From NCBI GenBank assembly GCA_023488925.1, contig JAMDDA010000064.1, forward strand, positions 1 through 15,960: a DNA stretch of 15,960 nt. The letters run 5' to 3'. Made by a program: the position numbers and the translations under genes. Positions 3,295-15,960 of the stretch are shown one piece after another. The first letter of the stretch is position 1; every line of letters starts with the position of its first letter. The notes under the pieces are model-generated. The model worked only from the letters and a program-made list of their open reading frames with translations, made no database searches and had not been told where the DNA came from. This stretch comes from Actinomycetota bacterium (lineage in GTDB: Bacteria > Actinomycetota > Thermoleophilia > RBG-16-64-13).

Positions 3295-3573
3295 TCAGTG
3301 TCGCCAACAGCGCCCGCAACGCCTTCTCGCTCGACGCGGCCGACGCTCCCCGCCTCCGGTGTGCTGGGAGCTGGGCCGTCTCTGGCCGCGGCCGGCGGCA
3401 ACGTTTTTCTGTGTCTCGGCGCGCCGTAACGGGTCCGGGTGGGGACACCGCTCGCGGGAGAAGACCTCCAGATGAACGGCCGAGGCGAAGGCAAGGCAGG
3501 ATTTCCTGCCGCTATCGCCACAGTTCGTACGGGGCAGTTCCTTGTGGATATCGAGGACCTTGCACGAGGTCAT
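3295..3573 (-). pseudogene. Fe-S domain (PF04060-like) ORF, probably degenerate or frameshifted
   Basis: The first ~50 residues read as the four-cysteine Fe-S domain of corrinoid/acetyl-CoA-pathway type proteins: KVLDIHKELPRTNCGD, then SGRKSCLAFASAV, then RCPHPDP. The spacing C18-x2-S21-x4-C26-x16-C43 matches CxxC-x4-C-x16-C except that the second cysteine is Ser21 (AGC), one base change from TGC. After residue ~52 the frame turns Arg/Gly-rich and non-protein-like. Another minus-strand frame (in 2828-3448) gives more protein-like text, EKALRALLATLRDADPAAQA, suggesting a frameshift. The ATG overlaps the TGA of the acyl-CoA dehydrogenase (ATGA), which supports a once-functional, translationally coupled gene. 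It could instead be an intact small protein with three ligands, or contain a sequencing error. Confidence 0.5.
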
Positions 3574-4781
3574 CGGTCATCGCTGCCAGGGTCGCGCTCT
3601 CGCTCAGGCACCCCTCTTCCCGCGTCGGGCTCCCCCGCCCCGATGGCCCGACTGATCACGAGACGCATCATCTCGCTGGTACCCTCACCTATGGTCAGCA
3701 CCCGAGCATCCCGGTAGAAGCGTGAGACCGGGTACTCGTCCATGAAACCGTAGCCGCCGTGGATCTGCACCGCCTGGTCCGCCGCCCACACGGCGAGCTC
3801 GGTACAGGTGAGTTTGGCCATGGCGGCCACCGTCTCGTAGGGCCGCCCTCGATCTTTCAGCACCGCGGCCTTGTAGAGAAGCAGCCGGGCCCCTTCGATG
3901 CGGGTGGCCATGTCGGCCAGCCGAAAACCCACCGCCTGGTACGTGCCGATCGGCCGGCCGAACTGGCGACGCTCCCGCGCGTGGCGCAGAGCCATCTCGT
4001 AAACACCCTGGGCCAAACCGAGGCCGAGGGCCCCCACCCCCACGCGCCCCGCGTCCAGAACGGTGAGGAACTGGGCAAGGCCCTTTCCCCGGACACCCAA
4101 GAGGTTCGCTTCGGGCACCCGGGCCTCCTCGAAATGTAGCTCGTGTGTGTCCGAGCCGCGCCAGCCCATCTTCCGGTAGGAGGGCCCGCGAGTGTACCCG
4201 GGGGTGTCCTGCGGCACGATGAGGTTGGAGATCTCGCTGCGGCCGTCTTCCCTGGCGCCGGTCACCACAGCCAGGTTCACCAAGGCGGTGATGGCGGTGC
4301 CCGAGTTGGTGATGAAGGCCTTGGTGCCGTTGACGATCCACTCGCCGTTCTCCAGCCGAGCGGTGGTGCGGATGGCGCCGGCATCGGAGCCAGCCTCGGG
4401 TTCGGTGAGACCGAAGGCTCCCAGAGCCTTACCGGAGGTCAGCCGGGGCAGCCATTCCCTCTTCTGCTCCTCGGTGCCGAAAAGCCAAATGGGGTTTGTG
4501 CCGAGCGAGGTGTGGGCGGCCACCGTGATGGCCACCGACGAGTCCACGCGGGCGAGCTCCTCCACGGCAAGGACATACGTCAGGGTGTCCCCGCCTGCGC
4601 CCCCGTATTCCTCCGGAAAGGGGATGCCCATGAGCCCGAGTTCACCGAGAGCGGCCACAATCTCGTAGGGAAAGCGGGCCTCGCGATCGATAGCCTCTGC
4701 CTGGGGCGCGATCTCCTGCTCGGCGAAGTCGCGCACGGTGTTGCGCACGAGCCGCTGCTCCTCGCTCAGATCGAACTCCAC
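3570..4781 (-). CDS. acyl-CoA dehydrogenase
   Basis: A 403-residue flavoprotein that oxidises an acyl-CoA to the trans-2-enoyl-CoA, passing electrons to an electron-transfer flavoprotein. Residues 1-120 are the helical N-terminal domain (FDLSEEQRLVRNTVRDFAEQ), LTEPEAGSD at 125-133 begins the FAD-binding middle domain, ERRQFGRPI at 270-278 and QIHGGYGFMDEY at 339-350 are in the C-terminal domain, and Glu366 in IGEGTSE is at the usual catalytic-base position. The GTG start at 4781 is preceded by GGAGG with 6-nt spacing; upstream in-frame sequence is not protein-like. The ~20-residue tail after VISRAIG is charged and unconserved in appearance. It follows the DUF35 gene by 52 nt in the thiolase operon. 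The chain length or type of substrate cannot be read from sequence. Confidence 0.95.
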   Translation of the reverse strand: MEFDLSEEQRLVRNTVRDFAEQEIAPQAEAIDREARFPYEIVAALGELGLMGIPFPEEYGGAGGDTLTYVLAVEELARVDSSVAITVAAHTSLGTNPIWLFGTEEQKREWLPRLTSGKALGAFGLTEPEAGSDAGAIRTTARLENGEWIVNGTKAFITNSGTAITALVNLAVVTGAREDGRSEISNLIVPQDTPGYTRGPSYRKMGWRGSDTHELHFEEARVPEANLLGVRGKGLAQFLTVLDAGRVGVGALGLGLAQGVYEMALRHARERRQFGRPIGTYQAVGFRLADMATRIEGARLLLYKAAVLKDRGRPYETVAAMAKLTCTELAVWAADQAVQIHGGYGFMDEYPVSRFYRDARVLTIGEGTSEMMRLVISRAIGAGEPDAGRGVPERERDPGSDDR

Positions 4782-4833
4782 GCCATTCCTCCGGTCGCCG
4801 ACCTCATCGTCAGCGGAGCGTCCGCCGCAGGCC

Positions 4834-5490
4834 TTACCCGGCCGGGACGAAGTAGACGTCGGTGGCTCGGAATTTCGAGTTCCGCAGGAAGCGGGCCGTG
4901 ACCGGCATCCCGATACGTACCTCTTCGGCTTCCACCCCGACCAGCCGGGACAAGAACAGCGTGTCCACGCCGTCGAACTCGACCAGGACGAGCGTGAACG
5001 GGGTCTCCTCCAAGAAAGCCTCACCGCCGTAGTAGCAGGTGGTAAAAGTGTGGATTCTCCCCTCCCGCGGCAGCTCGTACCACGCGGTGGGGGCGCCGCA
5101 CTCCATGCAGTGGCTCCGGGGGGTGGCGTAGACGTAGCCGCAGGCCGCGCACCGCGAACCCAGGAGCTTCTGCTGAGAGAGCCCGGCGAAGAAAGGCGAG
5201 TCCTGCGCGTAGGAGTGGACGTAGTCCACCTCCCAGTGCCACTTCAGGATGATCGGGTCGAGGTTGTACAGGATGGAGCCCTCGAGGGTTTCGGGAAGCT
5301 TATGCCCGGCGGCCCCACCCTTGTCGGCGCCGGCGCGGCCCGGGCCCACGCCCCCGGTGGAGCCGCGGGCGCCCACTTCGGCCCGACTCGTCCGGCCTGC
5401 GGAACTCTTAGCGCCCGCTTCCGCCCGGCTCATCCGGCCTGCGGAACCCTCGGCGCCCACTTCCGCCCGGCTCTTGTCTCGTCCAGCCAT
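4834..5490 (-). CDS. DUF35 OB-fold/zinc-ribbon acyl-CoA-associated protein with N-terminal repeats
   Basis: A 218-residue protein. Residues ~100-132 hold a rubredoxin-like zinc ribbon with Cys114/Cys117 (CAACG) and Cys128/Cys131 (CMECG). Residues ~140-215 form the OB-fold (GRIHTFTTCYYGGEAFLEE, VLVEFDGVDTLFLSRLVG, GMPVTARF). DUF35 proteins bind next to thiolase-like enzymes and channel or hold the acyl-CoA; the thiolase-like partner lies just upstream, 42 nt away. The first ~60 residues are unusual for the family: three 14-residue tandem repeats (SRAEVGAEGSAGRM and variants, residues 7-48), then a Gly/Ala linker. The start is supported by AAAGGAGG just before the ATG, so the repeats are probably translated. 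Confidence 0.9.
   Translation of the reverse strand: MAGRDKSRAEVGAEGSAGRMSRAEAGAKSSAGRTSRAEVGARGSTGGVGPGRAGADKGGAAGHKLPETLEGSILYNLDPIILKWHWEVDYVHSYAQDSPFFAGLSQQKLLGSRCAACGYVYATPRSHCMECGAPTAWYELPREGRIHTFTTCYYGGEAFLEETPFTLVLVEFDGVDTLFLSRLVGVEAEEVRIGMPVTARFLRNSKFRATDVYFVPAG
5347..5472 (-). repeat. three tandem 42-bp repeats in the DUF35 gene
   Basis: Three imperfect in-frame 42-bp units encode 14-residue repeats beginning SRAEVGAEGS, SRAEAGAKSS and SRAEVGARGS. They sit at the extreme N-terminus of the DUF35 protein before the conserved domain. The repeat is disordered in composition (Ala, Gly, Ser, Arg, Glu). Confidence 0.85.
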
Positions 5491-5532
5491 GCCCCCTCCT
5501 TTCGCCGCTTCGTCCCTACCACCGCCCCATAC

Positions 5533-6837
5533 TCAGGGCCGCTCGAGGATGGTCACGGTGACGTAGGTTCCGGTGCCGGCGTGCGAGTGGATGAGCCCCC
5601 GCCGCGCGTTCCGCACCTGCAGCGTAGGATCGCCCAGGTGCTTCGCCGTGGTCCCCTGCAGCTGCCAGAGGGCGAAAACCCCTTGCATGAGGCCGGTCGC
5701 TCCCACCGGATGACCGCAGGCCAGGAGCCCTCCGCTCGGATTCACGGGCACCCGGGGCGTGACGGGCAACTCCAGACCGTAGTCGACATTCGGCATGAAC
5801 GTAGCCCCTCCGGCCGAGTAGGGGCCGCCTTCACCATAGAGGCACAGACCCAGGTCCTCCACCGTCTGGATCTCCGACGAGGTGTAGGCATCGTGGAGCT
5901 CCACGAAGTCGATCTCCTCCCGGGGATCACCGATACCGGCCATGGCGTAGGCCAGCTTGGCGGCCATGCGGCCCGCCCGGAAGGAGTGCACCCCGGGATA
6001 GCGCAGGCCCGCGTAGTCGGCGGCCGATTCGTGGGGCAGCAGGATCACGTCGCCGTGGGGCCGATCGGCCATGCGCATGGCGTCGGTCCCCGTGCCGATG
6101 CCGGTGATACGTACCGGGTGGTCGCACACCCGCTCCGCCACCTCCTCACCGGCGACGATCAGGCAGGCGGCTCCGTCGGACATGGTGCAGATGTCGAGCA
6201 TGGTGAGCGGGGTGGCCACCATCTCGGCGGAGCGGACGTCGTCCACGGTCAGACGCGCAGGGAACTGCGCGTAGGGGTTGTGGAGGGCGTTGGCGTGGTT
6301 CTTGATGGAAACCCGGGCCATCTGCTCCACGGTGGTGCCGAACTCATGCATGTGTCGCCGCACCATCATTGCGTAGTAGCCGGTGTAGAAGCCGCCCACG
6401 GGGAAATCGAAGTTGGTGTCGCTGGCCAGGGCGATGAACTCGTTGCCCTTCCAGGTGCTGACCCGGCTCATGGTCTCGAAGCCCACCGCCACGCAACAGT
6501 CCATCCGGCCCGAAGCCACCTCCTGGTAGGCGTTCTGCAGGTTGAGTCCCCCGGTGGCTCCGCCCCCCTCGATGCGACGCGAGGGTTTGGGACACAGGCC
6601 CAGGTAGTCGTGGACCATGATGCCCGCCATCAACTGTCGCGTGAAGTGGTCGGAGAAGTAGGAGAGGCTCGAACCGTCGATCATGTCCACCGTGAGGGTG
6701 GGCACATCGGCCATGGCGTAGTCGAAGGCCTCCTTGCACATCAACCGGAAGTCCATCCCGGGGTGGGCTTTTGCGAACTTGGTGATGCCCCCGGCGATGA
6801 TGTACACCGGCCGGGAGAACGCCCCCGTCTTGGTCAT
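5533..6837 (-). CDS. thiolase-like (SCP-x/lipid-transfer type) protein lacking the nucleophilic cysteine
   Basis: A 434-residue thiolase-superfamily protein. N-terminal half: PVYIIAGGITKF, then RRIEGGGATGGLNLQNAY (87-104), SGRMDCCVAVGFETMSR. C-terminal half: EEIDFVELHDAYTSSEIQTV, then NPSGGLLACGHPVGATGL, and HAGTGTYVTVTILER. In thiolases the RRIEGGGATGG position reads roughly E-x-x-C-A-S-G; here Gly93 (GGC) replaces the cysteine. The HDAY and GHPVGATG catalytic-loop motifs are kept. Ltp2-type aldolases also lack that cysteine and pair with DUF35 proteins, so a retro-aldol cleavage of a beta-hydroxyacyl-CoA is a reasonable hypothesis. The start at ATG 6837 is chosen because GAGGAG lies 9 nt upstream; an in-frame ATG at 6870 falls within tandem repeats. 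It is first gene of the operon with DUF35 and acyl-CoA dehydrogenase. Confidence 0.9.
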   Translation of the reverse strand: MTKTGAFSRPVYIIAGGITKFAKAHPGMDFRLMCKEAFDYAMADVPTLTVDMIDGSSLSYFSDHFTRQLMAGIMVHDYLGLCPKPSRRIEGGGATGGLNLQNAYQEVASGRMDCCVAVGFETMSRVSTWKGNEFIALASDTNFDFPVGGFYTGYYAMMVRRHMHEFGTTVEQMARVSIKNHANALHNPYAQFPARLTVDDVRSAEMVATPLTMLDICTMSDGAACLIVAGEEVAERVCDHPVRITGIGTGTDAMRMADRPHGDVILLPHESAADYAGLRYPGVHSFRAGRMAAKLAYAMAGIGDPREEIDFVELHDAYTSSEIQTVEDLGLCLYGEGGPYSAGGATFMPNVDYGLELPVTPRVPVNPSGGLLACGHPVGATGLMQGVFALWQLQGTTAKHLGDPTLQVRNARRGLIHSHAGTGTYVTVTILERP

Positions 6838-6849
6838 CTGCGTTCGCTC

Positions 6850-6897
6850 CTCATCCGTCCGCCCCCTCATCCGTCCGCCCCCTCATCCGTCCGCCCG
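6850..6897. repeat. three tandem copies of a 16-bp unit upstream of the thiolase-like gene
   Basis: CTCATCCGTCCGCCCC is repeated head to tail at 6850-6865, 6866-6881 and 6882-6897, the last differing only in its final base. The copy nearest the gene contributes the GAGGAG ribosome site of the thiolase-like gene (minus strand), so the repeats extend directly into its leader. Confidence 0.85.
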
Positions 6898-7084: not shown

Positions 7085-8569
7085 CTACCCGAGCGCTCCG
7101 AAGAGCAGACCAGGCACCACGCCCAGAAGCAAAGTGAGGCCGACCGTGAGCCAGAGGGCCGTGCGTAGGCTCCACCCCGCGGCGGCTCTCGCACCGGTTT
7201 CGGCGACCGGCGGCGGAGCACCGGGCGCCGCTCCGCCGCCCGGACCTGCGGGCACTGCACCGGGGCCGGCGACCGCGGCGGGTTTATCCACCCGCCCCGG
7301 CGGTGCTTCCAGGTACATTTTCCGGATCACGTTGCCGTAATACCCGAAAGAGACGGCGCTGTTGATCACGCCCAGCACCACCAGCCAGACCACGCCGCCC
7401 TCGACGGCCCCCAGGAATACCGAGAACTTCCCCCAAAACCCGGCAAAGAGCGGCACCCCGACGAGCGAGATGAGGAACACGGTGAGGGCGGCGGCCCAGC
7501 CCGGCCGCCGCCGGCCCAGACCCGCGAGACCGGCGATGGCGTCGCCCAGCCCGTCCCGCTCGAGAAGGGCCACCACCAGAAAGGCACCCACGGCTGCACT
7601 CCCATAAGCGGCAAAGTACAGAACCGCCCCGTCCATGCCCTGGGGCGTACCGGCCGCCACCCCCACCAGGGCGTAGCCGGCGTGGGCCACGGCCGAGTAG
7701 GCAAGCATGCGCCGCAGCCCGGCCTGGCGGAAGGCGGCCAGGTTCCCCCAGAACATGGTGCCCAAGGCCATCCAGGCCAGGGCGGCCGTCCACGCGCCGC
7801 TTTGCCCACCCAGTCCCTCCAGGATGCGGACCAGGGCAACCACCGCCGCCAGCTTCGGCCCCACCGCCAGGAAGGCGGCCACCTCGGGGTGCGAGACCTC
7901 GAAGGCATCGGGCAGCCACTGATGGAAGGGGAAGGCCGCCAGCTTGAAGCCAAAGCCCACCAGCATAAAGCCGATGCCCAGCAGGAGAAGCGGCGACGAC
8001 CCCACCTGCGCGGGAAGCGGCACCCGTACCGTGCCCGTCATGCCGTAGATCAGGCTGAGGCCGTAGTAGAGAATGGCTGAGGCGAGCACACTCAGAATGA
8101 AGTACTTGAGGGCCCCCTCGAAGCTCCGCCGATCGGCGCCGCGGAAAGCAACCAAGGCGAAGCTGGGGATGATGGTGAGCTCCACCGCGAGAAAAATCAC
8201 GATCAGGTTTCCGGCGGAAACCAGCACCGAAGCCCCGAAGAGCGAGAGCGCAAAAAGCAGGAGGAAGTCGCCGCCATCCTTGCCGGCCACGGCCCCGTCG
8301 AGGGCGGCCAGCGACACCACCGCCCCCAGGGTCAAGAGGACCGAGTCGGCGAAGAGTGAGAGCCGGTCGACCACCAGAGCCTCGTGGAAGAAGCGGGCCG
8401 ACCGGCCCAGCAGCCCGATATCGACCACGAACGCGGCCCCTAAGAGGAGCGCCCCGGCGAGCACCAGGGCCCGCCGGGCGCCGGCTCCCGGCAACGACGC
8501 GGCCACCAGCCCGACGACCACCAAGAGACCGATACCGGCCTTGGGCAGCAGCAAGAAGGCGGTGCCCAT
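7085..8569 (-). CDS. nuoN: NADH-quinone oxidoreductase subunit N
   Basis: A 494-residue, multi-spanning antiporter-like membrane subunit of complex I. It is NuoN rather than NuoM or L by motifs: LELTIIP-type VELTIIPSFALVAFRGADRR (129-148), KYFILSVLASAILYYG (155-170), FKLAAFPFHQWLPDAFEVSH (208-227) and PLFAGFWGKFSVF (373-385). Glu130, Lys209, Lys239 and Lys381 are at positions expected for the proton-channel charges. Residues ~422-460 are a Pro/Gly/Ala-rich insertion before the last helix. The ATG shares one base with the TGA of nuoL (TGATG), so the two are translationally coupled. It is the last gene of the membrane-arm operon; no nuoM lies between L and N. Confidence 0.95.
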   Translation of the reverse strand: MGTAFLLLPKAGIGLLVVVGLVAASLPGAGARRALVLAGALLLGAAFVVDIGLLGRSARFFHEALVVDRLSLFADSVLLTLGAVVSLAALDGAVAGKDGGDFLLLFALSLFGASVLVSAGNLIVIFLAVELTIIPSFALVAFRGADRRSFEGALKYFILSVLASAILYYGLSLIYGMTGTVRVPLPAQVGSSPLLLLGIGFMLVGFGFKLAAFPFHQWLPDAFEVSHPEVAAFLAVGPKLAAVVALVRILEGLGGQSGAWTAALAWMALGTMFWGNLAAFRQAGLRRMLAYSAVAHAGYALVGVAAGTPQGMDGAVLYFAAYGSAAVGAFLVVALLERDGLGDAIAGLAGLGRRRPGWAAALTVFLISLVGVPLFAGFWGKFSVFLGAVEGGVVWLVVLGVINSAVSFGYYGNVIRKMYLEAPPGRVDKPAAVAGPGAVPAGPGGGAAPGAPPPVAETGARAAAGWSLRTALWLTVGLTLLLGVVPGLLFGALG

Positions 8570-10602
8570 CAGTGCGCCCCCAGCAGGAAGGCGGCCAGCA
8601 AGACCACGCCGACGACCACCGCGGCCACGTAATCGCGTACCTCGCCGGACTGGAGACGGCGGGTCGCCCGCCCGACCCGGAGGGTGCCGTAGGCTATACC
8701 GTTGACCAGCCCGTCGATACCGGCGGCGTCCACCGTCCGGGCAAGAAACCCCGCCAGCGCCGTGTACGAGCCGATGAGCACGCGCGCGTAGAAGGCATCC
8801 ACGTGGTACCCGGCGGCCACCCGTCCATAGGCCCACGGAGCACCCGCCTCCAGTCGAGCGTCAAGATCGGCGCCGGCGGCGGACCGGCGGCCGTACCCCG
8901 CCCAAGCCAGGGCTACCCCGGCGAGTGCGACCAGGACAGCGGCCACCGTGAGCCACACCGGCGTTCCGGGGGCGCCTTCTCCCGTCTCCACCAGACCGAG
9001 AAAACTCTGGAGCGGCCGGCCCAGGAAGCCGGCCCCCGGAAGGCCCGCCGCCAGTGAGGCCGCCGCCAGCAGAAGCAGAGGCACGACCATGACCGGCCCC
9101 GATTCCCGCGGGAGACCCGCGGGGTGCTCCTTGGGCGCGACCTCCTCGACCGCGCGGCCGGTCCCCCCGGCCGCCGCCGAGGATTCGCGATAGGCCGCCT
9201 TGGCCTGCGCCCGCAGCTCATCCTCGCCCCCGCGGCCGGTCCCCCCGGCCGCCGCCGAGGATCCCGGCCCGAAGAACACCAGGAACACCAGGCGGAACAC
9301 ATAGAAGGCGGTCAGGAAGCTCGCCGCGAGCAGCATGAGCAGCAGCGCCGGGTGGCTCGCGGCCACCACGCCCAGGATCTCCTCCTTACTCCAAAAACCG
9401 GCAAAAGGCGGAACGCCGGCCAAGGCGAGCGCGCCGACCACAAAGCTCCCCGCGGTGAGGGGCATGCGGCGCGCGAGGCCCCCCAGCTCCTCGACCACCT
9501 GCCGGCCGGTGGCGTGGATCACGCTGCCCGCCCCCAGGAAGAGCGTGGCCTTGAACCAGGCATGGGTGAACAGGTGGAACACCGCCGCCGCCGGAGCCCC
9601 CGCTCCCAGGGCGGCCACCATGAAGCCGAGCTGGCTGATGGTGGAGTAGGCCAGCACTTTCTTGATATCCCGCTGGGTCGCGGCGATGGTGGCGGCCATC
9701 AAGGCGGTGAAGGCTCCGATCCCGGCCACCACGTCCAGGGCGGCCGGCGAAGCCGCGAAGATGGCAAAGGTGCGGGCCACCAGGTACACGCCGGCCGCCA
9801 CCATGGTGGCCGCATGGATGAGGGCCGAGACGGGAGTGGGACCCTCCATGGCGTCGGGGAGCCATACGTGCAGGGGGAACTGCGCCGACTTACCCGCGGC
9901 CCCGGCGAAGAGCAGCAGGGGGATGGCGGTGGCCCAGGCGCCGCCGAGACCCCCGCCCTGGGCTTCGGCGAAGACCGCCCCGTAGTCCAGGGAGCCGGTC
10001 TGCCGCACGATGGCGAAGATCCCGACAAGCAGGCCCAGATCACCGATACGCGTGGTCAGGAAGGCCTTCTTGCCCGCGGCGGCGGCCGCCGGCCGCTCGA
10101 AATAGTAGGAGATGAGCAGGTAGGAGCTGGCGCCCACCAGCTCCCAGGCCACGTAGAGCAGGAAGAAGTTGGCGGCCAACACCAGCAGCAGCATGGCTCC
10201 GCTGAACAGGGAGAGCTCGGCGAAGTAGACCACCGCATCGCGGTCGCCGTGCATGTACCCTACGGAGTAGAGGTGCACCAGGAAGCTCACGGCGGCCACG
10301 ACGACCACCATGACCGTCTGGAGCCCGTCCGCCTGCAGCGAGAAGGGCACCTCCAGGGCACCCGCCCGGAACCACACGGCGCGGAGGGCCGGGTCGTCCC
10401 CCGAGCGGACCGCGAAAAAGACGGCCAGCGCCGCCACCAGCGCCACGAGCGTGCCGCCCGCGGAAAGCCAGCCGGCCGCGCGCCGCCAAACCCCGGCCGG
10501 CGCCCCTCCCAGACGGGAGGCGACCCCCCCTCCCACCAGCAAGAGAGCGCAGACCCCGAAGGGCACCGCCGGTATGGCCACGAGCACGGCGCCCACCGTC
10601 AC
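8569..10602 (-). CDS. nuoL: NADH-quinone oxidoreductase subunit L
   Basis: A 677-residue proton-translocating antiporter-like subunit. Key residues visible: Glu154 in VAWELVGASSYLL, Lys238 in AGKSAQFPLHVWLPDAMEGP, TPVSALIHAATMVAAGVY (256-273), DIKKVLAYSTISQLGFM (312-328), Lys351 in THAWFKATLFLGAGSVIHAT, and Lys406 in FAGFWSKEEIL. The C-terminus RRLQSGEVRDY plus a final helix is the typical NuoL end. The GTG start overlaps the nuoK stop (GTGA). Residues ~447-500, between two helices, are an unusual hydrophilic insertion with the 10-residue SSAAAGGTGR repeated twice, encoded by an exact 32-bp repeat. Confidence 0.97.
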   Translation of the reverse strand: MTVGAVLVAIPAVPFGVCALLLVGGGVASRLGGAPAGVWRRAAGWLSAGGTLVALVAALAVFFAVRSGDDPALRAVWFRAGALEVPFSLQADGLQTVMVVVVAAVSFLVHLYSVGYMHGDRDAVVYFAELSLFSGAMLLLVLAANFFLLYVAWELVGASSYLLISYYFERPAAAAAGKKAFLTTRIGDLGLLVGIFAIVRQTGSLDYGAVFAEAQGGGLGGAWATAIPLLLFAGAAGKSAQFPLHVWLPDAMEGPTPVSALIHAATMVAAGVYLVARTFAIFAASPAALDVVAGIGAFTALMAATIAATQRDIKKVLAYSTISQLGFMVAALGAGAPAAAVFHLFTHAWFKATLFLGAGSVIHATGRQVVEELGGLARRMPLTAGSFVVGALALAGVPPFAGFWSKEEILGVVAASHPALLLMLLAASFLTAFYVFRLVFLVFFGPGSSAAAGGTGRGGEDELRAQAKAAYRESSAAAGGTGRAVEEVAPKEHPAGLPRESGPVMVVPLLLLAAASLAAGLPGAGFLGRPLQSFLGLVETGEGAPGTPVWLTVAAVLVALAGVALAWAGYGRRSAAGADLDARLEAGAPWAYGRVAAGYHVDAFYARVLIGSYTALAGFLARTVDAAGIDGLVNGIAYGTLRVGRATRRLQSGEVRDYVAAVVVGVVLLAAFLLGAH
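9153..9262. repeat. exact 32-bp palindromic repeat, two copies inside nuoL
   Basis: Positions 9153-9184 and 9231-9262 are identical over 32 bp and lie 78 bp apart, in the same reading frame. Each contains a 7-bp stem, CGGCCGG/CCGGCCG, around TCCCC. Translated they give SSAAAGGTGR (residues 448-457 and 474-483 of NuoL) in a cytoplasmic or periplasmic loop. This resembles palindromic elements inserted in frame into protein genes. Confidence 0.9.
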
Positions 10603-10898
10603 TCCCGCAGCAGGCGCACCCGGTCCACGTCGGTGGAGCCGTAGCGCCGGTAGATGGTCAGGATCAGCGCCAAACCTACGGCCGCTTCGCAGGCGGCGAC
10701 GCCGATACCCAGGATGGCGAACACCTGCCCGGTCATGAGCTCCGGCTGGTAGAGCCGGGAAAAGGCCACCAGGTTGAGATTGGCGGCGTTCATCATGACC
10801 TCCACCGAGACCAGCAAGGTGATGGCATTCCGCCGGGTAAGCACACCGAAGAGCCCGATGGCGAACAACACCGCCGACAGCACCAGCACCGCCGTCAT
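10599..10898 (-). CDS. nuoK: NADH-quinone oxidoreductase subunit K
   Basis: A 99-residue, three-helix membrane subunit of complex I, normal length for the family. Conserved acidic residues of the proton path are present: Glu33 in SVEVMMNAANLNLVAF and Glu71 in GVAACEAAVGLAL. The ATG overlaps the nuoJ stop and its own stop overlaps the nuoL GTG, both by four bases. Confidence 0.97.
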   Translation of the reverse strand: MTAVLVLSAVLFAIGLFGVLTRRNAITLLVSVEVMMNAANLNLVAFSRLYQPELMTGQVFAILGIGVAACEAAVGLALILTIYRRYGSTDVDRVRLLRE

Positions 10899-11389
10899 TG
10901 CCGCTCCCCCCGCGCCACGACCAGGGCGGCCACGACGGCCGCCAGCAGAACTACGCCCATGAGCTCGAAGGCGAAGAGCTGCCCCCCCAGGAAAGACCGC
11001 CCCAAGAGGTCCACCGTCTGCGCAGGCGCCTTCCCTGGCTCCGGAAGTCCGGCGCCCAGCGAAGCCACCACGAGTCCACCCCCCACCAGATACGCGAGCA
11101 CCGCGCCCAGGCCGGGCCGATCGGCGCCCGCCAGCGGGTGACGTTCGCCCGACGCGGACAGCATGAGGGCAAACAGCATGAGCACGACGACGCCCCCGAC
11201 GTACACGAATATCTGCACGACCGAGACGAAGTCGGCCGCGAGTACATAAAACTCCACGGCCACCGCCGTCAGGAATGCACCCAGGGACATGATGCTCCGC
11301 AGGATCTGGCGGGTGAGCACGGCGTAGAGGGCGGACACCGCGGCCACCACCCCCACGAGCACGAAGAGCATGCTCTGCCCGCCGCTCAT
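10895..11389 (-). CDS. nuoJ: NADH-quinone oxidoreductase subunit J
   Basis: A 164-residue membrane subunit with five hydrophobic segments. The family core is clear: ILRSIMSLGAFLTAVAVEFY, then DFVSVVQIFVYVGGVVVLML containing the conserved VQxxVYxGGVxVL motif of the third helix. The start at ATG 11389 overlaps the nuoH TGA (ATGA); an open frame further upstream is not protein-like. In most operons nuoI stands between nuoH and nuoJ; here the two are joined directly. Confidence 0.96.
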   Translation of the reverse strand: MSGGQSMLFVLVGVVAAVSALYAVLTRQILRSIMSLGAFLTAVAVEFYVLAADFVSVVQIFVYVGGVVVLMLFALMLSASGERHPLAGADRPGLGAVLAYLVGGGLVVASLGAGLPEPGKAPAQTVDLLGRSFLGGQLFAFELMGVVLLAAVVAALVVARGERQ

Positions 11390-12351
11390 CCGGCCACCAC
11401 CTGCATGGCCAGGCCCGCCAGCACCAGGTTGACCAGGCTCAGGGGCAGGAACACCTTCCAGGCGAGCCGCATCAGCTGATCGGAGCGGAAGCGGGGCAGG
11501 GTCCAGCGGATCCACATGGTGAGGAAGACGATGGCCAGGGTCTTGACGAGAAACCACACGAACGCCGGCAGCAGGGGGCCGTTGCCCCCGCCCAGGAAGA
11601 GCACCGTGGCGAAGGCGCTCGCCGCAAACAGGGCTCCGTACTCGGCCAGGAAGAAGAGGGCCCAGCGGAAACCCGAGTACTCGGTGTGGTAGCCGGCCAC
11701 CAGCTCCGACTCCGCCTCGGGGATATCGAAAGGCGTGCGGTTGACCTCGGCCAGGGTCGTCACCAGGTAGAGCACGAACCCGAGGGGCTCCAGGACGAGG
11801 AAGGGCACGGTCCGCTGTGCCTCGAGCACCGCGGAGACACGCAGGCTGCCGGCCAGCATGACCACACCCACGACCGCGAGCGTGCGCGGGATCTCGTAGC
11901 TGATGAACTGGGCCGAGGAGCGCAGCCCGCCCAAGAAAGAGTAGTTGTCGTACGAGGCCCAGCCGGCCAACAGCAGCCCCACCGCGGTTACGCCGGGCAC
12001 AGCCAGGAAGTAGAGCACCCCCACGTTCAGGTCACGCATGATGAGGGGAGCCCCGAAGGGGATGACCGCGAAGCTCAGGACCGCCGGCACGGCGGTGAGC
12101 AGCGGCCCCAAGCGGAAAGCCATGGCGTCCGCGCGGGCGGGCCGTACATCTTCCTTGAAAAGCAGCTTCACGATGTCGGCAACCGTCTGCAGCAGGCCGT
12201 GGGGACCGGTATGCATCGGGCCCACGCGCATCTGGATGCGCCCCGATATCTTCCGCTCCACCAGCACCAGGACGGTGGTGAGCGCTCCCACTATGGTCAG
12301 CGATACCGCCCCCCAGAGGGCTCCCCAGGCGAACGTCGCCGCACCGCTCAC
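11386..12351 (-). CDS. nuoH: NADH-quinone oxidoreductase subunit H
   Basis: A 321-residue membrane subunit forming the quinone-site entrance and the link to the hydrophilic arm. Diagnostic motifs: ERKISGRIQMRVGPMHTGPH near the N-terminus, ISYEIPRTLAVVGVVML in the middle, EVNRTPFDIPEAESELVAGY and HTEYSG later, and MWIRWTLPRFRSDQLMRLAW near the C-terminus. The GTG start at 12351 gives the usual family N-terminus, with a weak ribosome site; sequence upstream in frame is out of character. It lies 22 nt after nuoA. Confidence 0.96.
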   Translation of the reverse strand: MSGAATFAWGALWGAVSLTIVGALTTVLVLVERKISGRIQMRVGPMHTGPHGLLQTVADIVKLLFKEDVRPARADAMAFRLGPLLTAVPAVLSFAVIPFGAPLIMRDLNVGVLYFLAVPGVTAVGLLLAGWASYDNYSFLGGLRSSAQFISYEIPRTLAVVGVVMLAGSLRVSAVLEAQRTVPFLVLEPLGFVLYLVTTLAEVNRTPFDIPEAESELVAGYHTEYSGFRWALFFLAEYGALFAASAFATVLFLGGGNGPLLPAFVWFLVKTLAIVFLTMWIRWTLPRFRSDQLMRLAWKVFLPLSLVNLVLAGLAMQVVAG

Positions 12352-12373
12352 CGGCGCACCCCGAGCGTAGCTC

Positions 12374-12748
12374 TCACCGCCACACCAGGGCACCTTTGCG
12401 CCAGGCGTAGAAGAGCCCCAGGGCAACCAACACAACGAAAATCCCCACCTCCGCCAGGGCGGCCCAGCCCTGGTCCCGCAGGACAGGGGCGATGGCGAAG
12501 AGCAGGAGAGTCTCCACCTCGAAGACGATGAAGACCAGGGCGAAGTTGTAATAGGCCATGTGGAAAGGCCGGCGCGGGACCGACGCCTGAGGCATGCCCG
12601 ACTCGTAAGGCTCGCGCTTGAGGCGCTCCGGGCGGGAGGGCCGCAACCATCGGAAGACCAGAATCGTGAAAACGGGGAGAGCAAAGACCGCCAGAGCGAA
12701 CCCGAGTAGGAAAACCACATCGGACTGGTACGGATCGTTCAACCCCAC
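12374..12748 (-). CDS. nuoA: NADH-quinone oxidoreductase subunit A
   Basis: A 124-residue membrane subunit with three helices. Characteristic are REPYESGMPQ in the loop and YYNFALVFIVFEVETLLLFA, where the acidic FE-VE-T pattern is typical of NuoA. The start is uncertain: GTG 12748 directly abuts the ribosome site GGGGAGA (12749-12755), while TTG 12742, two codons later, has ideal 6-nt spacing and may be the true start. It is the first gene of the minus-strand membrane-arm operon, divergent from nuoB. Confidence 0.94.
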   Translation of the reverse strand: MGLNDPYQSDVVFLLGFALAVFALPVFTILVFRWLRPSRPERLKREPYESGMPQASVPRRPFHMAYYNFALVFIVFEVETLLLFAIAPVLRDQGWAALAEVGIFVVLVALGLFYAWRKGALVWR

Positions 12749-13071: not shown

Positions 13072-13596
13072 GTGCTGGTTCCCCTGAGCCGGCCGCGGGG
13101 GCCGGCCTACGGGCCGTTGCTGGAGGGACCGGGCTTCGCCGTCCACTCCGCACAGCAGGTGATCGCGTGGGCCCGCAGCCACTCCCTCTGGCAGATGATG
13201 TTCGGGCTGGCGTGCTGCGCCATCGAGATGATGGCCACCAACGCCGCCCTCTACGACCTTGACCGCTTCGGCGTCATGCCGCGGGGATCACCCCGGCAGT
13301 CCGACCTGCTCGTCGTTTCCGGCACCGTCACCTACAAGGTGGCCACCATGGTGGAGCGCGTCTACCATCAGATGGCCGAGCCCCGCTGGGTCATCGCCAT
13401 GGGTGACTGCGCCACCGCCGGCAGTCTCTACTACCACGACGGGTACAGCGTGGTGAAGGGCGTGGACCAGATCATCCCCGTGGATGTCTATGTGTCGGGA
13501 TGTCCCCCCCGCCCGGAAGCGCTGATCGACGGCATCTTGGAGCTCGAGAACATCATCCGGGGCCGGTCCCCGGGGAACACCGGGGGCCGCCCGTGA
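13072..13596 (+). CDS. nuoB: NADH-quinone oxidoreductase subunit B
   Basis: The subunit that carries cluster N2, the last Fe-S centre before quinone. From the first canonical start (GTG 13072) it has 174 residues. Cluster ligands are Cys48-Cys49 in [12 protein letters not shown], Cys113 in [11 protein letters not shown], and Cys144 in [21 protein letters not shown] 13072 has no ribosome site. The frame is open upstream to a TAG at 12988, and the extra residues ([20 protein letters not shown]) look like real protein. A perfect AGGAGGT lies 6 nt before an in-frame ATA at 13009, so translation may start there, giving 195 residues, or the ATA may be a sequencing or assembly error for ATG. Its stop overlaps nuoC. 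Confidence 0.95.
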
Positions 13597-14108
13597 CGAC
13601 TGAGGCCCGGCCGGGCGCGGCGCCTCTAGTTCCCCGGTCCGACTTCGACGCCGAGCGTCTCGCGGACGCTCTGGCGGCGGAGCTCGGGAGCGATCTCTTG
13701 GAGCGCACCGCCGACGGTCACGGCGTGCTCTGTCTGCGTACGAGCCTGGCCGGGTACCGCCGGGCGGCCGAGCGGCTCCGCCAACACGGGGCGGACCGGC
13801 TGGACTTCCTCACGTTCGTCGACTGGCGGGATCACTTCACCCTCACTCTGCAGGTCTACGCCCTGGGCAGTCGGGCGGTAGTGCGCCTGAAAGCCGACCT
13901 GCCGCGGGACGGCGTGGAAGTCCCCACGGTGAGCGACCTGTGGTTCGGAGCCGGCTGGGAAGAACGAGAGGCCTACGACCTCTTCGGCGTGCGCTTCGCC
14001 GGTCACCCCGACCTGCGCCGCATCCTCCTGCCGGAAGCCTGGCACGGACACCCGCTGCGCAAGGATTACGTGGACGACGTCGACATCTCCCGGCCCCAGT
14101 ATTTCTGA
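13593..14108 (+). CDS. nuoC: NADH-quinone oxidoreductase subunit C
   Basis: A 171-residue, 30-kDa-subunit family protein of the hydrophilic arm that packs against NuoB and NuoD. The signature is [20 protein letters not shown], followed by [16 protein letters not shown]. It is a stand-alone C, not fused to D. The GTG start overlaps the nuoB TGA (GTGA), so an open frame upstream to 13500 is not used. Confidence 0.95.
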
Positions 14109-14130: not shown

Positions 14131-15318
14131 ATGACGCCGCACGACGAGAAAACCAGGCAACCACAGGCGGCCGTCCCGCCGGAACGGCTGGTGCCCGAGG
14201 AAGACCGGGGTGCGCCGGATGACGTCCAGGACTTCCTGATCAACGTGGGCCCCCACCACCCGGGTACCCACGGCGTGCTGCGCCTGGTGGTGCACCTCGA
14301 CGGCGAGAAGGTGGCGGGCCTCGACCCGCGCATCGGCTACATGCACCGGTCGCTCGAAAAGATCGTCGAGAACCGCACCTACCACCAGGTAATCGCCTTC
14401 ACCGACCGCACCGCGGACTACCTCGCCGCCATGCACAACGACTGGGTGTACTGTTTAGCGGCCGAGAAGCTCCTGGGCATCACCGTGCCGGAGAGGGCGG
14501 AGTATCTGCGCGTCATCACCGGTGAGATCAACCGCATGACCAGCCACCTGCTCTCGCTGGGAGCCCTGGGCCTGGACAGCGGGGCCACCACCTACTTCCT
14601 TTGGTGCTTCGCCGCCCGGGAACGTCTGGTGCGGTTGCTGGAGGACATCTGCGGCGCGCGTCTGACCTACGTGTACATGCGCCTGGGCGGCGTCATCGCC
14701 GACGCCCCTCCCGGGTGGCTCGAACGGGTGGACGAGGTGGTGCACGGGGTGATTGCGGAGCTTCCCCGGCACCGAGCCCTCTTCCACGACAACTACATCT
14801 GGCACCAGCGTTCCCGGGGCATCAGCACCCTCACCCCCGCCGAAGCCCTGCGCATCGGCGCCCAGGGCCCGGTGTTGCGGGCGGCCGGGGTCAAGTGGGA
14901 CCTGCGTCGCGACATGCCCTACTCCATCTACGACCGCTTCGAGTTCGACATCCCGGTAGGCACCACGGGCGACGTCTACGACCGCACCGAGGTGCGTCTG
15001 CAGGAGATCGTGGAGAGCGCCAAGATCATCCGCCAGGCGGTGCGGGACATTCCGGAGGGACCCATCCTGGCCAAGCGGGTCCCCCGGCTGCCGGCCCCCC
15101 CGCCCGGGGAGGTCTACGCCCGGTTGGAATCGCCCCGGGGTGAGATCGGCTGCTATCTGGTGAGCGACGGCGGCATCAAACCCTACCGCATGAAATGGCG
15201 GGGCGCCTCGTTCCACAACGTGGCCATGCTGCCCGAGCTGGCGGTGGGTTACACGCTGAGCGACCTGATCAACATCGTCGGTACCCTGGACCCGGTCATG
15301 GGGGACGTGGATCGATGA
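14131..15318 (+). CDS. nuoD: NADH-quinone oxidoreductase subunit D
   Basis: A 395-residue, 49-kDa-subunit family protein that lines the quinone pocket. The quinone-site motif INVGPHHPGTHGVLR includes His43 and His47, GYMHRSLEKIVENRTYHQ follows, and the C-terminal FHNVAMLPELAVGYTLSDLI and GTLDPVMGDVDR end is canonical. It begins 22 nt after nuoC. The N-terminal ~30 residues are polar and not conserved in appearance. Its stop overlaps the next gene by ATGA. Confidence 0.97.
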   Translation: MTPHDEKTRQPQAAVPPERLVPEEDRGAPDDVQDFLINVGPHHPGTHGVLRLVVHLDGEKVAGLDPRIGYMHRSLEKIVENRTYHQVIAFTDRTADYLAAMHNDWVYCLAAEKLLGITVPERAEYLRVITGEINRMTSHLLSLGALGLDSGATTYFLWCFAARERLVRLLEDICGARLTYVYMRLGGVIADAPPGWLERVDEVVHGVIAELPRHRALFHDNYIWHQRSRGISTLTPAEALRIGAQGPVLRAAGVKWDLRRDMPYSIYDRFEFDIPVGTTGDVYDRTEVRLQEIVESAKIIRQAVRDIPEGPILAKRVPRLPAPPPGEVYARLESPRGEIGCYLVSDGGIKPYRMKWRGASFHNVAMLPELAVGYTLSDLINIVGTLDPVMGDVDR

Positions 15319-15960
15319 GGTGGGAGGATCTGCTCAAACCCTGGCTGAGCATCGCCAAGGGGGGTGTGCAGACCTTCCGCCAGATGGTCTCACCTCCCAC
15401 CACCATCCTCTACCCTTACGAGCCGGCGCCGCTCTCGCCCCGCTGGCGCGGGCCGCTGCGCCTGCGGGGGGTCATGGACGACCAGCAGCCACCGGTCACC
15501 GACGCTCCCCCCCTGGAGTTCAACGACCTCATGAACGAGCTCCACGAGCAACGGAAGATCGCCCCCTGCCAGGGAGGGTGCCCCGCCAACGTCGACGCCC
15601 GGGGCCAAAACGCTCTGGTGGCCGCCGGGAGGACCATCGAGGCCTACAACCTCGTGCGCCGCCGCAACATCCTCCCCGGGGTGTTGGGCTACGTGTGCAA
15701 CAACCCCTGCGAAGACGTGTGCCGGCGCGCCTACCTCGACGACCCCATCGCCATCCGGCAACTGCACCGGGAGTGCTTCGCGGTCTACGATCGCGAAGCG
15801 CGCTTCCCCGGGCACCTGCGGAGCCTGGTGTACCGCACCGAACACGTGGCGGTGGTCGGTGCCGGCCCGGCCGGCCTGGCCGTGGGCTACGACCTCGTGC
15901 AGATCGGGTACCGGGTCACGATCTACGACCGCGAGGAGATTCCGGGCGGCCTCCTGGTGA
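15315..15960 (+). CDS. NuoI-like N-terminus fused to a GltD/NfnB-type Fe-S/FAD oxidoreductase (partial)
   Basis: At least 215 residues, running off the window's right edge. Residues 1-50 read as the N-terminus of complex I subunit NuoI: KGGVQTFRQMVSPPTTILYP and PLSPRWRGPLRL. Where NuoI would continue with its CxxC ferredoxin motif, the protein instead has a GltD-type N-terminal domain: Cys85 and Cys89 (APCQGGCPANVDARG), then Cys128, Cys132 and Cys136 (GYVCNNPCEDVCRRA), then the FAD-binding GAGPAGLA (182-189) followed by a VTIYDREEIPGGLLV. This family couples NAD(P)H to Fe-S centres. The ATG overlaps the nuoD stop (ATGA), so it is translated with the complex I genes. NuoI ferredoxin cysteines may lie further downstream, outside the window. 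The start and fusion are clear; the function is inferred. Confidence 0.9.
   Translation, partial: MRWEDLLKPWLSIAKGGVQTFRQMVSPPTTILYPYEPAPLSPRWRGPLRLRGVMDDQQPPVTDAPPLEFNDLMNELHEQRKIAPCQGGCPANVDARGQNALVAAGRTIEAYNLVRRRNILPGVLGYVCNNPCEDVCRRAYLDDPIAIRQLHRECFAVYDREARFPGHLRSLVYRTEHVAVVGAGPAGLAVGYDLVQIGYRVTIYDREEIPGGLLV

Follow-up and report, generated by a model that had tools for sequence, protein, structure and literature searches.

The last gene in the 15,960-bp stretch of DNA analysed here (the window) lies at positions 15315..15960 of the plus strand, and its product is very probably the NuoI subunit of a complex I with no nuoEFG in its gene cluster. A flavoprotein of the GltD/NfnB type has been inserted into this NuoI which, judging from its sequence, would provide a one-chain input for NAD(P)H electrons into the iron-sulfur cluster N6a. 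On the most economical reading this is a complex I of the 11-subunit type in which a single inserted domain, the flavoprotein, serves as the NADH module and probably replaces the usual three-protein one. Architecture, gene position, conservation, the match of the cluster ligands to those of NfnB and StnC and a predicted fold carry this reading, and from them we infer cofactors, electron path, direction and proton pumping. The window spans all of contig G000:C53, from a 65%-complete genome, and the contig end truncates the gene after 215 codons; complete homologues encode 653-659 residues. G, L and P numbers denote genomes, loci and proteins, and f1 is the window's own family.

Domain architecture of the fusion

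The open reading frame begins with a NuoI N-terminal segment (residues 1-51, 15315..15467) consisting of a helix followed by TxxYPxExxxLSPRWRG, with a match to TIGR01971 and with residues 13-52 matching the NuoI model NF004539 (E 6.7e-5). Next comes a GltD-type Fe-S domain (residues 80-155, 15552..15779) containing C85, C89, C128, C132, C136 and H151, of which residues 82-153 match Fer4_20 (PF14691, E 7.8e-11), and the gene runs off the contig in the start of an FAD-binding Rossmann fold (GAGPAGL; residues 175 on, 15837..15960), where PF13450 scores above its cut-off and residues 177-212 match FAD-type Rossmann folds. An earlier reading of the window made from its letters (the sequence-only reading) had proposed both the NuoI hallmark and the GltD-like Fe-S and FAD domain, and the profile matches bear it out. 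It had also described the ferredoxin part of NuoI as replaced or split, of which only the second holds: NuoI is not replaced but is split at one point just before the first cluster motif, with the GltD module inside.

This is seen most clearly in the complete homologue L036 (656 aa), which supplies the full-length layout: the NuoI N-terminus at residues 1-51, a GltD/NfnB-type Fe-S/FAD/NAD(P) module at about 80-485, a linker with an extra CxxC, and the NuoI 2x[4Fe-4S] domain. Searched by themselves, the first 57 residues of L036 match TIGR01971 (E 5.9e-6), residues 19-51 covering positions 4-36 of the 121-position profile, and in a search with the whole protein residues 559-639 cover positions 40-121. 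Fer4_20 (83-157) and Pyr_redox_2 (177-470) lie between the two NuoI pieces, and alignment with an ordinary NuoI from f1 places the insertion directly behind the RFRG/RWRG motif. Because the match is split in two, the whole protein scores 92.7 bits against TIGR01971, under the curated cut-off of 113.05.

The relatives compared include proteins from the best 120 of 2253 matched. Alignment A3 holds 28 full-length sequences, none dropped, and alignment A4 has 57 rows, which include close relatives and are hence not 57 independent observations. P0025, P0032 and P0040 (short), P0041 and P0048 (duplicates of loci used), P0046 (a near relative), P0060 and P0070 (NuoH fusions), P0005-P0009 (partial) and L063 (a contig-end fragment) are left out of A4; within P0069-P0160, P0075, P0085, P0088, P0089 and P0091 were used, P0070 was read, and the others were judged by length, Pfam and names. 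Residues T30, Y33, P34, R43, R45 and G46 are invariant in A3, and every one of the 57 rows of A4 has the NuoI N-terminal segment, that of P0056 being degenerate. Two CxxCxxCxxxCP motifs, which in the window gene would lie beyond the truncation, occur in 28 of 28 relatives in A3 and 57 of 57 in A4, and full-length fusions also contain the FAD motif GxGxxG and the NAD(P) motif GGG(D/N)V, so that the motifs the sequence-only reading had looked for past position 15960 are seen in complete relatives.

Two other accounts of the end segments were considered and rejected. A chance likeness of the N-terminus to NuoI is at odds with matches of the 57-residue piece to 10 NuoI/FpoI/NdhI models, eight of them at E<0.005, and a derivation of the C-terminal ferredoxin domain from PRK12771 is at odds with the scores of the last 119 residues of L036, which are 76.7 bits against TIGR01971 and 27.8 against PRK12771. 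The predicted structure of P0026 has an N-terminal helix at residues 3-25; a first model, built on a shallow alignment, had pLDDT values below 50 from residue 492, and a second was used instead. Because the structural matches (VIA-align) span mainly residues 80-525 of the model and say little on the NuoI part, that part of the reading rests on sequence.

Among the matches listed we also note two proteins of 1004-1006 aa (P0060 and P0070) in which NuoH, the NuoI N-terminus, the GltD module and the NuoI ferredoxin domain are joined on one chain; both are of the YRR type described below.

Gene position and the absence of nuoEFG from the cluster

Outside f1, 10 loci were fetched from 14 genomes. 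In nine of these the fusion lies between nuoH and nuoJ, the normal place of nuoI, with the order nuoA-B-C-D-H-[fusion]-J-K-L-M-N over the extent that the contigs cover; the remaining locus (L073) has a divergent layout like that of the window, but with nuoM present. The fusion is the only nuoI of its nuo cluster in all ten, and likewise in the f1 clusters. At position 15315 of the window its ATG overlaps the nuoD stop codon as ATGA, an overlap found identically in L034, L036 and L037 and one that fits the coupling to nuoD described in the sequence-only reading.

Neither the window cluster nor the f1 clusters examined contain a recognizable nuoE, nuoF or nuoG, and a tblastn search of limited sensitivity, using references from a single f1 locus (L051), found no match to separate NuoE, NuoF or NuoG at E<=1e-4 in any of the 10 loci outside f1. 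In none of the loci examined was nuoEFG found placed together with the fused complex. The gene content is what the bypass of NuoEFG suggested earlier would predict, and a role of the fusion in electron transfer is one that we infer. None of the seven f25 genomes has a NuoI match at E<=1e-9 apart from the fused gene itself, and three of them (98-100% complete) yielded no NuoF homologue.

Distribution and origin

Sixteen of the 19 fusion-length proteins that match the C-terminal domain are 653-659 aa long. A census of the phylum, requiring a match at E<=1e-32 that begins inside the NuoI N-terminus, recovers the fusion from 17 of 396 sampled genomes in six families (seven in f25, three each in f1 and f47, two in f55, and one each in f64 and f72), and a class-level survey at the same threshold recovers it from f1 only, in 7 of 399 genomes. 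Eighteen f1 genomes were inspected, seven with the fusion and 11 without. The relatives carry the source names Thermoleophilia, Coriobacteriia, Candidatus Aquicultor and Candidatus Subteraquimicrobiales, all Actinomycetota. Two proteins among the matches listed (P0043 and P0044), 84% identical to the f25 query, are in metagenome-assembled genomes labelled Anaerolineae and Firmicutes, and may represent either mislabelled bins or transfer outside the Actinomycetota. In genome G001 the fused gene (L034:10001-11970) is interrupted by a frame change; its intact close homologue is P0026.

A tree of NuoD with 30 rows (L081-L083 and L091-L093, which have no NuoD match, being left out) parts the 17 fused from the 13 unfused clusters by one branch (94/91; 93% of bootstrap trees), and with shuffled labels 10.2 changes are needed on average. 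The tree is compatible with a single insertion event.

Cluster ligands and the proposed electron path

Fifteen cysteines are invariant in the 28 full-length fusions of A3: C85, C89, C128, C132 and C136; C555 and C558; and C563, C566, C569, C573, C601, C604, C607 and C611, the last eight being the NuoI cysteines. In A4 these eight, C85, C89 and C558 are retained in every row, C555 is cysteine in 53 rows and serine in four, and one row is gapped at C128-C136. According to excerpts of PMC7596348, the distal cluster of Thermotoga maritima NfnB (TmNfnB) is held by C39, C42, C47 and C100, and the proximal cluster by C51, C90, C96 and E117. The fusion has in-place counterparts of C47, C100, C51, C90 and C96 and lacks the N-terminal CxxC of the distal cluster, with no equivalents of C39 and C42 there. 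Because its linker (residues 521-575) aligns with the N-terminal region of Pyrococcus NfnI including RCLQC, an alignment that is weak when taken alone (8.8 bits), C555 and C558 can stand in for this pair. The putative ligands would then be four distal, three proximal and eight of NuoI, matching the 15 invariant cysteines and fitting four clusters, and H151 or K151 would complete the proximal cluster as its fourth ligand. This position aligns with K170 of StnC, which according to literature excerpts acts as a ligand in one of the states of StnC. An arginine near the FAD, R222, is also invariant in A3 and aligns with StnC R239.

C558 is followed five residues later by C563, the first ligand of the NuoI cluster which, following the conventional assignment of cysteines to N6a and N6b, we take to be N6a. 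The clusters of complex I follow one another in the order N5-N6a-N6b-N2. Because of the short distance from C558 to C563 the distal GltD cluster should sit beside N6a, and the spacing strongly suggests that it adjoins the normal delivery point of the last cluster of NuoG. In the path that we propose, NAD(P)H would give a hydride to the FAD of the inserted module, and single electrons would pass from the FAD to the proximal [4Fe-4S] cluster (C89, C128, C132 and H/K151), then to the distal cluster (C85 and C136 together with C555 and C558 of the linker), and then by way of N6a and N6b of NuoI to N2 in NuoB and on to quinone.

Motifs predicted for NADH and NADPH

Excerpts of PMC7596348 describe NfnB and DsrL-2 as binding the phosphate of NADP by a YRR motif, and the DsrL-1 enzymes tested as preferring or needing NAD(H). 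The motif at this position in A4 is (L/V/R)E in 37 rows and YRR in 20. Taken together with residue 151, 32 rows combine histidine with the E form and four lysine with the E form, 19 combine lysine with YRR and one histidine with YRR, and one row is gapped. The E type is present in the six f1 loci that cover the motif (L034-L039), the window gene stopping before it, and YRR is present in all seven f25 loci. These motifs lead us to predict that the window's family uses NADH, the phosphate-binding YRR being replaced by (L/V)E, and that the f25 or Aquicultor-like members, which retain YRR, use NADPH.

We also examined 20 unfused GltD-like loci from the window's own genome and its relatives. Twelve have YRR followed by MPA, of which only L002 is from G000, L011 has the E form, and the rest have no readable motif or no open reading frame. 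In L017 and L022, unfused family members, the ferredoxin motif of the GltD-like open reading frames is followed by a CAGCGAP motif, which we guess may connect them with 2-oxoacid:ferredoxin oxidoreductases.

Comparison with known systems

The fusion shares with ordinary NuoI (TIGR01971) the N-terminal helix, the YPxE...RWRG sequence, two CxxCxxCxxxCP motifs, the C-terminal segment and, in nine of the 10 loci outside f1, the position between nuoH and nuoJ, but has about 500 residues inserted between profile positions 36 and 40. Its clusters have no nuoE, nuoF or nuoG in the examples examined, unlike those of the 14-subunit complex I, and resemble in gene content the nuoABCDHIJKLMN-type set of the 11-subunit complex I, which has no NADH-module genes; they differ from the latter in that the input module is a covalent part of NuoI and that the f1 cluster is also without nuoM.

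The inserted module finds its best structural matches in StnC and the NfnABC large subunit (8oh5_C, 9bov_A), which likewise have a GltD-type module with a CxxC after the flavin domain, and StnC has a lysine at the position of H/K151; their module is joined, however, to NuoG/FdhF-type domains of soluble transhydrogenases and not to NuoI. NfnB and the GltD small subunit share Fer4_20, the double Rossmann fold for FAD and NAD(P) and the five cluster ligands with counterparts in TmNfnB, whereas in the fusion the C39/C42 pair is shifted to the C-terminal linker and another motif stands in place of YRR in 37 of 57 rows. DsrL has a GltD core, a linker and a C-terminal 2x[4Fe-4S] domain, and shows the same contrast between NAD(H)-preferring DsrL-1 and YRR-bearing DsrL-2, but as described in excerpts of PMC7596348 it has no NuoI N-terminal segment, has DsrAB as its partner, and carries its distal ligands N-terminally. 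PRK13984 (NF010590) also combines a NuoI-like ferredoxin part and a GltD part on a single chain, but with the NuoI-like part first and GltD after, as judged from profile coordinates. The fusion scores 289.6 bits against this profile (curated cut-off 946). The cut-off is exceeded in Thermotoga maritima, and none of 296 phylum genomes matches the profile at E<=1e-150. PRK13984 is a possible independent solution of the same problem.

Alternative explanations

Several points weigh against, or limit, the reading set out above. The window gene is cut short, in a genome that is 65% complete; the E motif is not special to the fusion, being present in the unfused L011; and in the NuoD tree the unfused row L094 is long-branched and the single-origin result is not firm. 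NuoF-type genes (PF01512) are present in 18 of 18 f1 genomes and in 11 of the 14 fusion genomes outside f1, where they lie at 16 places over the cut-off, and separate NuoF-type proteins may dock onto the fused complex. Moreover, the fused complex I is often not the sole one in its host. Five of the seven f1 fusion genomes also hold an ordinary NuoI that scores over the cut-off and belongs to a distinct 11-gene cluster lacking nuoEFG (the two that do not are the incomplete G000 and G012), and outside f1 there is a second complex I in G181 (an 11-gene cluster) and in G339 (a NuoI-like match beside a nuoG match); a full-length NuoI-like match just below the cut-off occurs in G339, G181, G230 and G211. 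The sequence-only reading had named a normal nuoI elsewhere together with nuoEFG as counting against it: the nuoI is there in the five f1 genomes, and nuoEFG is not beside it.

Of the 16 NuoF-type places outside f1, 14 were fetched (G382:C248 and G339:C135 being left out), and no complex I genes were found near them apart from weak 35-bit NuoI matches in L100 and L101. Seven of the 14 are NuoE-NuoF-NuoG-type sets, six with a GltD match as well (L099, L104, L105, L106, L107 and L108), which gives them the make-up of the StnABC/NfnABC electron-bifurcating transhydrogenases; the hosts of these six seem to use the GltD module twice, in one soluble and one membrane complex. The remaining places comprise six with a weak NuoF match (24-31% identity) and one without any when the L051 references are used. 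L051 itself, the only such f1 locus annotated with profiles, contains NuoE, NuoF, a NuoG-like protein, a formate dehydrogenase alpha subunit and a lipoamide dehydrogenase, and lies beside neither complex I. Close homologues of its NuoE, NuoF and NuoG are present in L044, L046 and L050 (G000:C120), and further sets in L047 and L052.

The same wiring could operate mainly in reverse, with the proton motive force driving quinol electrons by way of N2, N6b and N6a to the FAD, where NAD(P)H would be formed for biosynthetic use; the YRR (NADPH) members are the most plausible candidates. We think this rather unlikely as the main function. The wiring is symmetric, the NADPH motif is kept in 20 of the 57 fusions, and AvDsrL-1A, a related GltD-type protein, is biased to NAD+ reduction according to excerpts of PMC7596348; the second, unfused complex I of several hosts could run the forward reaction. 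In the f25 genomes, however, no other complex with a NuoI was found, and the fused one would have to serve both needs.

Less probable still is that ferredoxin is the true donor, delivering electrons at the distal cluster, with the flavin acting as a side exit for balancing the pools of ferredoxin, NAD(P)H and quinone, whether or not the FAD bifurcates. Ferredoxin has been proposed as the donor for the 11-subunit complex I of Desulfitobacterium (PMC11238625, in excerpt), and NfnB, a close relative of solved structure whose FAD bifurcates, is described in literature excerpts as exchanging electrons with ferredoxin; the arginine near the FAD is conserved as well (R222, corresponding to StnC R239). 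However, StnC has the same arginine and, in the excerpts, does not bifurcate, and there is no NfnA-like gene among the annotated flanking genes, although no search was aimed at NfnA.

It seems very improbable that the protein is instead a soluble enzyme with GltD and ferredoxin parts, comparable to DsrL or PRK12771, that merely happens to be encoded in a nuo operon. Its GltD part and linker do resemble PRK12771 (407 bits), and there are known GltD-type proteins that carry ferredoxin domains at the C-terminus (PMC7596348, in excerpt), but all 57 rows of A4 have the NuoI N-terminal segment, if degenerate in P0056, the ferredoxin part scores highest with NuoI, the f25 genomes yielded no further nuoI, and two of the proteins are fused to NuoH. 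Finally, an assembly join or frameshift, which the sequence-only reading had allowed for and which the stop of the window gene at a contig end and the broken frame of the L034 copy might suggest, can be dismissed for practical purposes, being refuted by intact full-length homologues in many assemblies from six families, including the one-contig genome G181.

Feeding a complex I without NuoEFG

The 11-subunit complex I of Desulfitobacterium and Chloroflexi, with genes nuoABCDHIJKLMN and no NADH-module genes, has an electron donor that excerpts of PMC11238625 call unresolved, reporting an unsuccessful search for one common donor protein, and excerpts of PMC5736913 make a similar statement. In the open-licence literature we found no published NuoI-GltD fusion or GltD-type complex I donor. 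If the fusion is the NuoI of a complex I without nuoEFG, its architecture suggests how such a stripped-down complex obtains electrons, and fusion at the entry cluster names the donor module for one set of lineages. The donor question becomes directly testable, as it concerns one polypeptide with defined ligands and a predicted NADH/NADPH difference. The fusion would offer a compact, natural substitute for the three-subunit N-module and have a bearing on the modular assembly of complex I.

More speculatively, and with considerable doubt, a lineage of Actinomycetota may have built an NAD(P)H input into NuoI as a third feeding mode besides NuoEFG and ferredoxin docking, with NADH and NADPH versions that differ at a short nucleotide-binding motif, sometimes with a further fusion to NuoH, and with a ten-subunit pump in f1 that lacks NuoM and would have an altered proton stoichiometry.

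The nuo cluster of the window and the missing nuoM

The window cluster is divergent, with nuoA, H, J, K, L and N on the minus strand and nuoB, C, D and the fusion on the plus strand. The genes upstream of the fusion are nuoB (13072..13596; TIGR01957, E 6.3e-65), which encodes the N2 cysteine motifs CC, GDCA and GCPPRP, nuoC (13581..14108, start uncertain; TIGR01961, E 5.9e-27) and nuoD (14131..15318; NF008974, TIGR01962 and NF004739). Because NuoB keeps the N2 cysteines, and NuoD has HHPGTHG without the NiFe-binding CxxC in a motif check against group 4 [NiFe] hydrogenases, the complex is of the quinone type and not a hydrogenase. On the minus strand are nuoA (12374..12748; NF005839, E 2.5e-25), nuoH (11386..12375; NF004741, 353 bits against a cut-off of 305), nuoJ (10895..11404; an open reading frame between nuoH and nuoK that as a tblastn query matches nuoJ-positioned genes in relatives), nuoK (10599..10898; profile match), nuoL (8569..10602; TIGR01974, 594 bits, above the cut-off) and nuoN (7085..8536; TIGR01770, 328 bits, below the cut-off of 332.6), the starts of nuoH, nuoJ and nuoN being uncertain. 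Genes for an acyl-CoA dehydrogenase, a ChsH2-type OB-fold protein and a thiolase (3570-6870, minus strand) adjoin the cluster, and an acyl-CoA dehydrogenase and a thiolase are also near the complex I cluster in G001.

No nuoM was found in the window cluster, including between nuoL and nuoN, and no NuoM over the cut-off was found in any fused f1 cluster; of the three antiporter-type subunits the window and the covered f1 clusters have nuoL and nuoN only. Outside f1 nuoM is present in nine of the 10 loci, and the remaining one stops in nuoL at a contig end. Genomes G001 (91% complete) and G013 (99%) each contain exactly five antiporter-type genes at E<=1e-20, namely L, M and N of the other cluster and L and N of the fused cluster. 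The fused f1 complex either pumps without NuoM or borrows NuoM from the other complex. The C-terminal part of NuoL is about equally long with or without nuoM in the cluster (14 aligned NuoL), which mildly favours borrowing from the second complex.

A third complex I-like cluster is present in L091 (6363-13845; G010:C13) and L092 (G004:C3), with matches to NuoA, H, K, L, M and N, and to NuoJ in L091 only; the NuoB, C, D and I references gave no match in either. L092 encodes a divergent protein with a partial NuoD-type match, and the L091 cluster adjoins CopC/CopD and cation efflux genes.

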